64,000 nt of DNA, taken from positions 2,304,939 through 2,368,938 of the forward strand of contig NZ_AP028056.1 in the NCBI RefSeq assembly GCF_030297015.1. The letters run 5' to 3'. Below, in pieces: positions 24,533 to 27,520 of this stretch (positions are counted from its first letter, which is position 1; every line of letters begins with the position of its first letter). This DNA is from Brooklawnia propionicigenes (lineage in GTDB: Bacteria; Actinomycetota; Actinomycetes; Propionibacteriales; Propionibacteriaceae). The notes beneath the pieces are model-generated. The model worked only from the letters and a program-made list of their open reading frames with translations. It was not told where the DNA came from and ran no database searches. Made by a program: the position numbers and the translations under genes.

Positions 24533-24589
24533 CCACAGCCCGCGCCGAAAGTAGCGTGCCGGCCGGTCGCCAATCGGTGCAATGTGCGG

Positions 24590-24695
24590 CCGGGCTGCTA
24601 TGCTGATGTCAATCCGCGTGGAGAATCGGGTGAAATTCCCGAGCTGACCCGCAACCGTCATTGGCCGCAAAAGCCGAGAGCCGGACCGAAACGTG
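24590..24695 (+). promoter_or_regulatory. Cobalamin riboswitch (short form)
   Basis: The conserved core is present: GGGTGAAATTCCCGAGCTGA followed by CCCGCAACCGT (24628-24658), then, after a short spacer, the B12-box-like AAGCCGAGAGCCGGACC (24670-24686). Spacing between core and box is short, as in compact cobalamin riboswitches. The exact ends are uncertain. It points to the + strand. Downstream are only two tiny ORFs and, about 380 bases on, an ABC transporter gene. The target is therefore unclear. Confidence 0.8.
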
Positions 24696-24710
24696 GAGAG
24701 TAAGAGAACC

Positions 24711-24733
24711 GTCTCGTCGCGGTAAAGCGAGAC
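24711..24733 (+). promoter_or_regulatory. Hairpin in the riboswitch expression platform
   Basis: GTCTCG (24711-24716) pairs with CGAGAC (24728-24733) just after the riboswitch. There is no T-run, so it is not a typical intrinsic terminator. Confidence 0.4.
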
Positions 24734-24800
24734 TGGGCCAGCCCTCGGGCTCCCCGGACAAGCAATGTCGCACAAGGCTCGGGAACCGAGAGGCATCACG

Positions 24801-24893
24801 ATGCGTAGTCCCACTAGCTCCCTCCGTGCTAGCACGCGGCCTGTTTGTCGATCGCTCCCTTCCGCCTCCAGCACGAATCCACGGTCGCGCTGA
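24801..24893 (+). CDS. Possible small ORF 1 downstream of the riboswitch (30 aa)
   Basis: ATG at 24801 follows GAGAGG (24788-24793) at good spacing. That ribosome site is partly enclosed in the CTCGG-GAA-CCGAG hairpin. The 30-residue product is rich in Ser and Arg and resembles nothing known to me. Coding potential is doubtful, but the position after a cobalamin riboswitch makes it worth noting. It could be a leader peptide. Confidence 0.3.
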
Positions 24894-24901
24894 GGAGGCT
24901 C

Positions 24902-25039
24902 TTGAGCAGGGCCCGGCACTCCAACGGATGGGTTTCCCTCCCAAAACAACCCATCGTCACCTCGTTGCGAAGCGCCGGGTCCTGCCTTTTCTCTGCCTGG
25001 TTCGCCTGCTGCACGCGGCCGGGCCGTCCATGTCGATGA
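24902..25039 (+). CDS. Possible small ORF 2 downstream of the riboswitch (45 aa)
   Basis: TTG at 24902 has GGAGG three bases upstream, directly behind the stop of small ORF 1. The 45-residue product has a Cys-containing end ([18 protein letters not shown]). The rare TTG start and short spacing make it weak. No homology recognised. Confidence 0.22.
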
Positions 25040-25073
25040 CCTGAGGTGAAACCGGTTGGGTCCGAAGGCCACA

Positions 25074-25763
25074 ATGGGAGCCATGGCCAAGCGCGAGACG
25101 GTCCTCAAGGTGACCGACCTGATGAAGAAATATGGCGATCATGTGATCGTCGACCGATTCAACCTGACTGTGTACTCGGGTGAGGCTGTGGCATTGACCG
25201 GACGCAACGGTTCCGGTAAGTCGACCGTCCTGCGCTGCATCATCGGCGCCGATCGTCCCAGTGAGGGGCGGGTCGAGGCATTTGGACGCAAGGTCAGCGA
25301 AACCGACCCGGCATTCCGCCGCGATGTTGCCACCATCGTGGACGACCTGGATTTCTTCCCCGACCTGTCGGTCGTCGAGCATCTCGATCTGCTCGCGCGT
25401 GCCCACGGACTGGCCGATCCCGACGCGCTGGTCGACGAGGTGCTCGATGAGGTGCAACTCGTCCCGCAGTCGGCTCAGTTGCCCGGCACGCTGTCCAGTG
25501 GCCAGCGGCGCAGGCTCGCCCTGGCGACCGCCCTGGTCCGTCCGCGCAAGCTGCTGGTGATGGACGAACCCGAGCAGCGCCTCGACGTCGAGGGCGTCGC
25601 CTGGCTGGGCGCTCGGCTGAAGCATGAGATGAGCAAGGGCCTGGCGATCGTGATGGCCAGCCATGAGCCGACGCTGGTGAACGCGCTGGGGGCGCGGATC
25701 GTGCGCCTCGGTGCAGCCGCCGAGGCCAGCGAATCGCAGGTCGAACCGGAGTACGAGTTGTGA
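25074..25763 (+). CDS. ABC transporter ATP-binding protein
   Basis: A 229-residue nucleotide-binding domain. Walker [10 protein letters not shown], signature [12 protein letters not shown], Walker B KLLVMDEP and the H-loop in MASHEP are all present; the Q-loop region is atypical (TIVDDLDFF). Start at ATG 25074 is favoured by GAAGG five bases before it; ATG 25083 is the alternative. Its stop overlaps the GTG of the next gene by four bases, so the membrane protein is its partner. Cargo is unknown; the closest class is the CcmA/multidrug export type of ATPase. Confidence 0.88.
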
Positions 25764-27520
25764 GTCGCACCAGCAAACGCAATCGGCGTCAGTCGAAACC
25801 CAAGCCCCAGCAGGCCCCCCGCCCCGAACAGGCACAGCCGGAGCCGGCCGCGCCCGAGCCCGTGCTCTACGAGCGTCAGACCGCGTTCGCCGACGTGGAG
25901 GACTTCGAGACCGGACTGGCCGACGAGAAGCAGCTTCAGCTGCTGATGAAGGACTGGCGCAAGGGCAGGGCCACCCGGACCATCTGGGACATGATCACCG
26001 ACGGCTATGTGGTGATCTTCTCGCTGGTCGTCATCATGGCGATGATCGTCAGCGGCATCATGTCGGTTCAGCAATCGGCGGCCGGCTGCAGCACGTCCGG
26101 CTGCCTGACGGCGCGCGGTCTGCTGCCCTGGCTGGTTCTTACGCTGGTGGTCGTCGTCGGTGTCAGCGTGTCACGGATCTTCGGGCCGGTCATCGCCTCG
26201 GCCGCCGAGGGTTTCTGGCTGCTGGACGCCCCGGTGCGGCGCAGCCGACTGCTCAACCGGCGGCTGTGGGCCGTGGTGATCGGAGCCTGCGCGATCGGTG
26301 TGGTGCTGGGTGGTGCGGTCACCATGGTGACCGGACTCAGCTGGACCGCGATCGGCACCTGGGCAGCGGCGATCGGCCTGGCCACCGCCGCGGTGGTCGC
26401 TCTGGCGGCCATCGAACAGGCCGCCGAGCGCACCACCGTGCTGGCCGTGCTGCAGGCAGTGATCTCCGTGCTCGCGATGGGCGTGCTGGTCGCCATGATC
26501 GCGGTGGCCTCCGATTGGATCAGCCTGCCGATCGATCCGGCGCACACCGAGGAGTTCGGCGTGGGCGTGCTGGCCGTCGCTGGCGTGGCTGCCATCGTCT
26601 GCTCGGTGATCGCCCGCCGCAACCTGCACAATGTCCGGCGGACCCGCCTGGTCTCGGGCGGTGACCTGCTGTCGGGCATGCAAGGCGCCATGTTCGCGCT
26701 CGACTTCGGGCTGATGCGCGACATCGTGGTGAACCGCCGCTGGCTGGCGAAAGGCCATGTTCATCCGTCGAAGGGACGCTCGTCCGGACGCGCGGCGCTG
26801 ATCTGGCGTGAGGTCGAGCGGCTGCTGCGCAATCCTCGCGGCGTGGTCGTCCTGCTGGTCAGCGCGGTGGTGCCCTACGCGCTGCTGTCGCTGGGATTGG
26901 GGAACCTGACCCCGGCGGTTTCGGCGATCGTGCTGATGTTCGTGATGGTGCCATTCTTCGACTCGTTGCGGGTGCTGAGCCGCACCCGGGGCCTGGCGCG
27001 AGCCTTCCCGATGTCCACTTCCCAGCTGAACGGTTCGCTGACGGTGGTGCCGGCCGTTCTGGCGCTGCTGTGGGCGATCGCCGCCGGACCCGCATTCGTG
27101 CTGATCGGGCCGGACGCCCCGACCCCCGCAGGGCTCGGCAACGGCCTGATGAAGGGTCTGATCACGGCGGTGGCCGGGTACATCGCGGCGATGCGCTGGG
27201 TGACGGCCAAGTCGGCCGACTACTCGTCCCCGATGGTGGCCACCGGCTTCGGTGCGCTGCCGCCCGGGCTGATGTTCAACCTGGTGCGTGGCTTCGACGT
27301 CATCGCCCTGATCACCCTGCCGGTGCTGTTCGGCTGGAGCCCGATGATCTCGATCGTGATCGCGATCATCTGTTACATGGTGTTGCGCTCCGGCGGTATC
27401 AATACCCAGGACCTGATGGAGCAGAACGAGGAGGCGCAGCGCCAGCTGGCCGCCGCCAAGAAGGGCGGCGGTGTCTCCGGGCAGCGGGAGAAGATCACCT
27501 ACACCCGCAGCAAGCGCTGA
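25760..27520 (+). CDS. Multi-span membrane protein, putative ABC permease (DUF6297-like)
   Basis: A 586-residue protein. The first about 80 residues are hydrophilic and rich in Gln, Pro and Lys, followed by about twelve hydrophobic helices. Between the halves lies a charged stretch with KGRSSGRAALIWREVERLLR, recalling the conserved loop of bacterial ABC-2-like exporters. The family label DUF6297 is from memory and should be checked. It overlaps the ATPase gene as GTGA, so together they probably form an exporter. Substrate unknown. Confidence 0.72.
   Translation: MSRTSKRNRRQSKPKPQQAPRPEQAQPEPAAPEPVLYERQTAFADVEDFETGLADEKQLQLLMKDWRKGRATRTIWDMITDGYVVIFSLVVIMAMIVSGIMSVQQSAAGCSTSGCLTARGLLPWLVLTLVVVVGVSVSRIFGPVIASAAEGFWLLDAPVRRSRLLNRRLWAVVIGACAIGVVLGGAVTMVTGLSWTAIGTWAAAIGLATAAVVALAAIEQAAERTTVLAVLQAVISVLAMGVLVAMIAVASDWISLPIDPAHTEEFGVGVLAVAGVAAIVCSVIARRNLHNVRRTRLVSGGDLLSGMQGAMFALDFGLMRDIVVNRRWLAKGHVHPSKGRSSGRAALIWREVERLLRNPRGVVVLLVSAVVPYALLSLGLGNLTPAVSAIVLMFVMVPFFDSLRVLSRTRGLARAFPMSTSQLNGSLTVVPAVLALLWAIAAGPAFVLIGPDAPTPAGLGNGLMKGLITAVAGYIAAMRWVTAKSADYSSPMVATGFGALPPGLMFNLVRGFDVIALITLPVLFGWSPMISIVIAIICYMVLRSGGINTQDLMEQNEEAQRQLAAAKKGGGVSGQREKITYTRSKR

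Follow-up and report, generated by a model that had tools for sequence, protein, structure and literature searches.

A compact cobalamin riboswitch ahead of a short ORF, a C-rich loop and a terminal hairpin in Brooklawnia, a possible stand-alone B12-gated RNA

What does a cobalamin riboswitch control when no B12 gene lies behind it? Few riboswitches are known to control anything but the next gene, and the window analyzed here (a 64,000-nt stretch of the Brooklawnia propionicigenes genome) presents a case that may strain that rule. The first-pass annotation had proposed a cobalamin riboswitch on the + strand, back to back with menG and followed by no gene for B12 transport, synthesis or a B12-independent isozyme. 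Pfam searches agree on what follows: the next genes encode an ABC transporter ATPase and a DUF6297 membrane protein. The features of the sensor, all on the + strand, are as follows.

24599..24604, + strand: -10-like TATGCT 5' of the aptamer (TAnnnT box comparison)
24613..24697, + strand: cobalamin aptamer (Rfam match, 18-row alignment and covariation)
24613-24619/24691-24697, + strand: closing helix of the aptamer (alignment)
24626-24630/24638-24642, + strand: aptamer helix P5 (alignment)
24679-24687, + strand: B12-box core AGCCGGACC, likely assignment (alignment)
24711..24733, + strand: P13-like hairpin 3' of the aptamer, arms 24711-24716/24728-24733 (alignment)

A scan of the whole window at Rfam gathering scores returned no match for a cobalamin riboswitch, because the element falls just short of the threshold: with E-value reporting, the Rfam cobalamin covariance model (RF00174), which the first-pass annotation had suggested running, gives a 30.6-bit match (E 7.4e-6) to 24581-24730 of the + strand, against a gathering cut-off of 31.5 bits. 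Across the whole genome (one contig, 3.2 Mb) the same model gave three matches, of which this one was the weakest (E 7.1e-6) and the only one below the cut-off. Related sequences were collected by blastn with 24600-25000 against 198 family genomes, 42 of which gave matches at E <= 0.001. From 20 stretches fetched, 13 related aptamers were aligned with the five genus copies to give 18 rows; L162, L165, L167, L169, L170, L171 and L173 were left out, L165 because the pattern had taken the wrong site. Double changes occur in 19 of the 25 aptamer pairs of this alignment. The five-helix structure has 84.6% of its cells paired (shuffles, 66.5 ± 1.5%) and a covariation score of 0.547 (shuffles, 0.207 ± 0.021), values of pairing and covariation that none of 500 shuffles reached, and sliding the partners cut the covariation score to 0.14-0.16. 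A model made from the 18 aptamers scores the window element at 126 bits, a figure that is high partly by construction because this element is one of the model's 18 sequences, and covariation is thus the firmer support. Together, the sub-cut-off match and the covariation bear out the proposed identification: the element is a cobalamin riboswitch on the + strand and a predicted sensor of B12.

The alignment also refines its anatomy. Both the core and a B12-box had been called clear. AGCCGGA within AGCCGGACC is invariant in 18/18 rows, and the Rfam fit places the 3' half of the aptamer elsewhere; it is likely that AGCCGGACC at 24679-24687 is the B12-box core and that the Rfam fit misplaces this half. 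With 85 nt between the ends of its closing helix (24613-24697) and no P8-P12 extension, the aptamer is compact, the feature by which class II cobalamin riboswitches are described in PMC11260477, and we regard it as class-II-like. The same paper gives the class IIb signature as GGAA at J3/4 and UCU at J6/3; J3/4 in the window reads GGAGAA. The P13-like hairpin has a C, a G and a G in its loop that are invariant in 18/18 rows and shows double changes in five of six pairs, but with 64.2% of cells paired it is the weakest helix. It is rightly placed as a candidate L5-L13 partner, and the loops, compared by eye over the 18 rows, show no clear covariation. A sigma-70 scan called no full promoter for the riboswitch transcript. 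A TAnnnT box sits at the equivalent place 5' of the aptamer in 16/18 aptamer loci and 5/5 in the genus (counts made with no shuffle control), and because of it we place the RNA start probably at ~24610-24612, near 24611.

The element lies between menG and the ABC/DUF6297 pair in five of seven species of the genus (the window genome, G000, together with G002, G003, G005 and G006, three of the five being closely related), and it is also present in G103, another genome of the same species as the window. The element has stayed at one site although the ABC genes of the carriers are only 0.36-0.68 identical at four-fold sites. In G001 and G004 the menG-ABC spacer lacks it. When the window and 80 ABC loci (L064-L143) were searched with the model, it appeared in the window, L064, L065 and L068, with an insignificant match in L089 (E 0.62); G001 and G004 stand in this set as L066 and L067. 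No aptamer was found upstream of the ABC gene in the 75 other family loci, which were classed as family members by name rather than by tree and of which a few had <1.5 kb of upstream sequence. The ABC protein tree does not settle the placement of G001 and G004 against the carriers, but quick DNA trees put both among them, alongside G002, G000 and G005 when all codon positions are used (0.876 at the joining fork) and with G002 when positions 1+2 are used (support 0.493). Because of this placement the element was likely lost in these two species.

Beyond the aptamer, the following features come into play.

24788..24793, + strand: Shine-Dalgarno (SD)-like GAGAGG ahead of the short ORF (same sequence in G000, G002 and G005)
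24801..24893, + strand: short ORF of 30 codons (MRSPTS...NPRSR), start position common to five species
24905..24985, + strand: GC-rich terminal hairpin resembling a terminator, followed by the tail CTTTTCTCTGCC (folding z -6.3, covariation)
24936..24942, + strand: CCCUCCC loop of the inner hairpin (CCUCCC hairpin loop in carriers)
25070..25075, + strand: -10-like CACAAT upstream of the ABC ATG, with its T at -8 (80-locus comparison)
25083..25763, + strand: ABC transporter ATPase (PF00005, E 1.4e-29)
25760..27520, + strand: DUF6297 membrane partner (PF19814, E 4.8e-131)

Two tiny ORFs had been noted in this interval, and they fare differently: the one at 24801-24893 begins at a conserved position, while the other (24845-25039, 64 aa) seems, on inspection by eye, not to be conserved. 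Neither 24765-24893 nor 24845-25039 has a Pfam match. Measured from the aptamer core, the ATG lies at +158, +160, +162, +155 and +159 in G000, G002, G005, G006 and G003 (the order of all five-value series below), behind an SD-like site that matches AGGAGG at 4/6 positions in 5/5 carriers, and opens ORFs of 30, 47, 30, 50 and 32 codons. In shuffles of the downstream sequence, an SD and ATG opening a frame of 25-55 codons arose in 0.5-0.8% of cases per species, the accepted range of start positions having been fixed after inspection of the data. At 24888-24899, the ORF stop codon overlaps GAGGAGGC, which is able to pair with GCCTCC upstream; this region forms a second SD-like site with no obvious conserved ORF after it.

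The locus could instead encode a B12-controlled microprotein of 30-50 residues: 5/5 carriers retain the SD-like site and the position of the start codon, and in 4/5 the stop adjoins the terminal hairpin. We nevertheless consider such a gene improbable, as likeness among the peptides is confined to MRSPTS at one end and NPRSR at the other, and to three close species that have the same DNA at those ends. In segments picked after viewing the alignment of these three species, the blocks at the ORF start and end (24783-24817 and 24869-24899) are 0.90-0.94 identical and the aptamer and terminal hairpin 0.76-0.80, while the ORF middle, at 0.61-0.67, evolves like the four-fold sites of the ABC gene (0.57-0.68). 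The open frame alone is weak coding evidence, since shuffled ORF middles remain open in 67-77% of trials. Because the blocks at the ORF ends are kept while its middle drifts like four-fold sites, it seems to be RNA blocks, and not the peptide, that are constrained.

The ORF stops 11, 12, 10, 6 and 50 nt before a terminal stem whose folding is stronger than that of shuffles (z -6.3, -5.6, -4.5 and -5.9 in G000, G002, G005 and G006); in G003 the first stretch tried gave z -1.2 and a hairpin just downstream z -4.3. Across three sequences, double changes occur in 5/38 pairs of the downstream helices (the outer terminal stem, of 16 pairs, accounts for four), and 25/500 shuffles reach the covariation observed for the helices 3' of P13, so the signal is modest. 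The 12 bases after the stem contain 6, 1, 6, 4 and 0 T residues, and a consensus terminator scan did not call the hairpin; its one + strand call, a weak one, lay at 24824-24839. A CCUCCC hairpin loop is found in 5/5 carriers, inside the terminal hairpin in all except G003, where it is located before it; equal hairpins arise in shuffles at frequencies of 0.036, 0.028, 0.024, 0.156 and 0.0015, the values for G000, G002 and G005 not being independent. TTTCCCTCCCAAA is identical in three species. Past the terminal stem, identity falls to 0.48-0.58, and there conservation ends. The comparison with related genomes that had been recommended uncovers a conserved downstream ORF start, CCUCCC loop and terminal hairpin in five carriers. 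The suggestion that the riboswitch could serve a small protein or a regulatory RNA holds up.

The first-pass annotation had also entertained a long leader controlling the ABC pair. That reading is weakened because the ABC gene has a conserved -10-like element of its own, seen over 80 loci and kept in the two riboswitch-less members of the genus, and because conservation stops at a strong terminal hairpin, 97 nt short of the ABC start. Counting upstream from that start in the 80 loci (L064-L143), A occupies -12 in 70, -10 in 67 and -9 in all 80, and T occupies -8 in 68; the element is present in genus members with the riboswitch and in those that lack it (G001, G004), and suggests a leaderless mRNA. 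What survives of the long leader is an attenuator in cis that adds B12 control to the ABC/DUF6297 pair, the main rival explanation, which we judge possible though doubtful. With little B12, the ORF would be translated and the ribosome at its stop would cover the foot of the terminal stem, permitting read-through; with B12, the ORF would fall silent, the hairpin would form and read-through would cease. The geometry suits this scheme: the ABC gene is on the same strand, starting 97, 114, 104, 63 and 72 nt after the end of the stem, and the ORF stop is 6-12 nt from the stem in four carriers, if 50 nt in G003. M. tuberculosis moreover supplies a precedent in a B12-gated, translated uORF upstream of its target gene (PMC11260477). 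The scheme sits poorly with the ABC gene's independent promoter-like element, with the presence of that gene without a riboswitch in G001, G004 and 75/75 other family loci searched, and with the loop: that of a terminator should vary freely, yet TTTCCCTCCCAAA is identical in three species.

This independence of the ABC promoter-like element, together with the retained loop sequence, leads us to favor a stand-alone RNA. In our reading, to which we give a probability of about 0.5, the locus is a self-contained B12-sensing unit, composed of a leader ORF and a regulatory RNA, and not mainly the leader of the ABC pair. The unit would span ~375 nt (370-432 in five carriers), comprising promoter, aptamer with P13, ribosome-binding site with ORF, and terminal hairpin, and would end ahead of the promoter-like element that belongs to the ABC/DUF6297 pair itself. 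B12 riboswitches are generally OFF switches. Bound B12 would here stabilize the aptamer and P13, mask the ribosome-binding site of the ORF and lower its translation; folding with and without a P13 constraint gave no consistent masking of the SD. Since the stop lies 6-12 nt before the stem in four carriers, the hairpin there could be disturbed by a ribosome that reaches the end of the ORF, and we propose that translation up to this point (50 nt away in the fifth carrier) changes 3' folding or survival. B12 would in this way determine what form a short RNA takes, or how much of it there is. Because RNA blocks are conserved and the encoded peptide is not, the functional product is most probably the RNA. 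Perhaps, and this is a guess, the RNA acts in trans through its C-rich loop on purine-rich ribosome-binding sites. In its most specific form, the proposal is that a B12 riboswitch heads a free-standing actinobacterial RNA, that translation of a throw-away ORF of 30-50 codons remodels the hairpin, and that the CCUCCC loop silences mRNAs in trans at their ribosome-binding sites; as a whole, this chain is speculative and rather unlikely.

Among the closest known systems is the class-IIb riboswitch of M. tuberculosis ppe2, as portrayed in PMC11260477: it too is compact and actinobacterial, and it acts first on uPPE2, a short ORF of partial conservation after the L13 hairpin. An SD and start downstream of the equivalent hairpin are present in 5/5 of our carriers, at +155 to +162. 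The two differ in what comes afterwards. According to PMC11260477, uPPE2 is coupled to ppe2 by a stop/start overlap, whereas here the ORF ends at 24893 and the ABC gene starts at 25083, with a terminal hairpin in between that follows the ORF by 6-12 nt (4/5 carriers) and a promoter-like element that belongs to the next gene itself.

Rfam includes a family of the 6C/B11 kind of sRNA, and because scans of the window gave no match to it, we do not file the element as a member; to our knowledge, the 6C/B11 sRNA has no riboswitch part. The resemblance lies in C-rich hairpin loops, which in the mycobacterial 6C/B11 sRNA could pair with G-rich mRNA leaders, as reported in PMC10470900, and which in the window take the form of CCUCCC, a candidate trans-acting loop. 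This loop occurs in 5/5 carriers, equal hairpins being found in 0.15-16% of shuffles. As a candidate target sequence we tried the complement of TTTCCCTCCCAAA (13 bases, <=1 mismatch), whose sole match in G000 is the element itself; any trans pairing by the loop would therefore be shorter than 13 bases.

An RNA of the eut type, likened in the first-pass annotation to those of Enterococcus and Listeria, finds no support, as no eut gene appears among the scanned neighbors and no RNA of this type in the Rfam scan. The corresponding explanation, a sponge RNA for an ANTAR protein of the EutX/Rli55 type, gets very little credence from us. The riboswitch does seem to head its own transcript, as in EutX/Rli55, sRNAs that carry a cobalamin riboswitch near, and separate from, downstream genes (PMC5821096, accessible part), an arrangement that we infer here. 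However, none of the neighbor proteins scanned is a eut product, the Rfam scan of the region lists no such element, and the visible loops are C-rich; in place of the ANTAR binding site of EutX/Rli55, as outlined in the accessible part of PMC5821096, of which none is recognized here, the element has a short ORF with an SD-like site and a C-rich loop.

The same aptamer type, with its P13-like hairpin, recurs before long ORFs in Propionibacteriaceae. Among the 20 stretches fetched by blastn, 12 were examined, and in 12/12 the riboswitch leads into an ORF of 217-981 aa (taken as the longest with a start 80-350 nt downstream), whereas the window element leads into 30 codons and a terminal hairpin. 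Compact riboswitches with P13-like hairpins lie 5' of the long ORFs at L154-L159, L162, L164, L166, L168, L169 and L173; by eye and not by family search, many of the 12 ORFs look like secreted or surface proteins, with leucine-rich and other repeats, and they may be surface proteins for corrinoid uptake. G001, G004 and G003 each also have a riboswitch copy before a long ORF, and G006 has a riboswitch-linked surface protein copy, one of the 12 stretches examined.

The window element could on this view be a remnant, the decaying leftover of an ancestral unit of riboswitch and surface-protein gene from which the coding body has gone. The 12/12 stretches and the copies in G001, G004 and G003 favor it, as do the secreted look of many of the long ORFs by eye, a G005 peptide that resembles a signal peptide, likewise by eye, and the two genus members that lack the element. 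Decay, however, would not be expected to keep pairing in the aptamer and terminal hairpin through double changes, nor to hold the ORF start in place, and we rate a remnant as quite improbable. A search for DUF4430 as a lost riboswitch target found none in the eight genus genomes searched, and is uninformative on loss because G006, which has a riboswitch-linked surface protein, also lacks DUF4430.

The self-contained, B12-gated unit remains our preferred account. That a few species retain the riboswitch, ORF start, C-rich loop and terminal hairpin as a set, although the peptide drifts, makes possible a direct test of B12 regulation through a leader ORF or RNA instead of an enzyme or transporter, and would extend the link between B12 riboswitch and uORF in M. 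tuberculosis to another actinobacterial family. Our literature search, which most subscription papers lay outside, turned up no description of the element. Cobalamin riboswitches have been described before cbiL, cobD and cbiM in Propionibacterium freudenreichii (PMC11494915).

Other riboswitches were seen in passing. L190, in G003, is a like riboswitch 5' of a partly masked ORF that resembles a binding-protein gene. The window genome itself holds two further cobalamin riboswitches, both above the cut-off (L001 and L002; G000:C1:1066825-1066977 and 444006-444121), which precede ORFs that look by eye like a precorrin methyltransferase and a substrate-binding protein.
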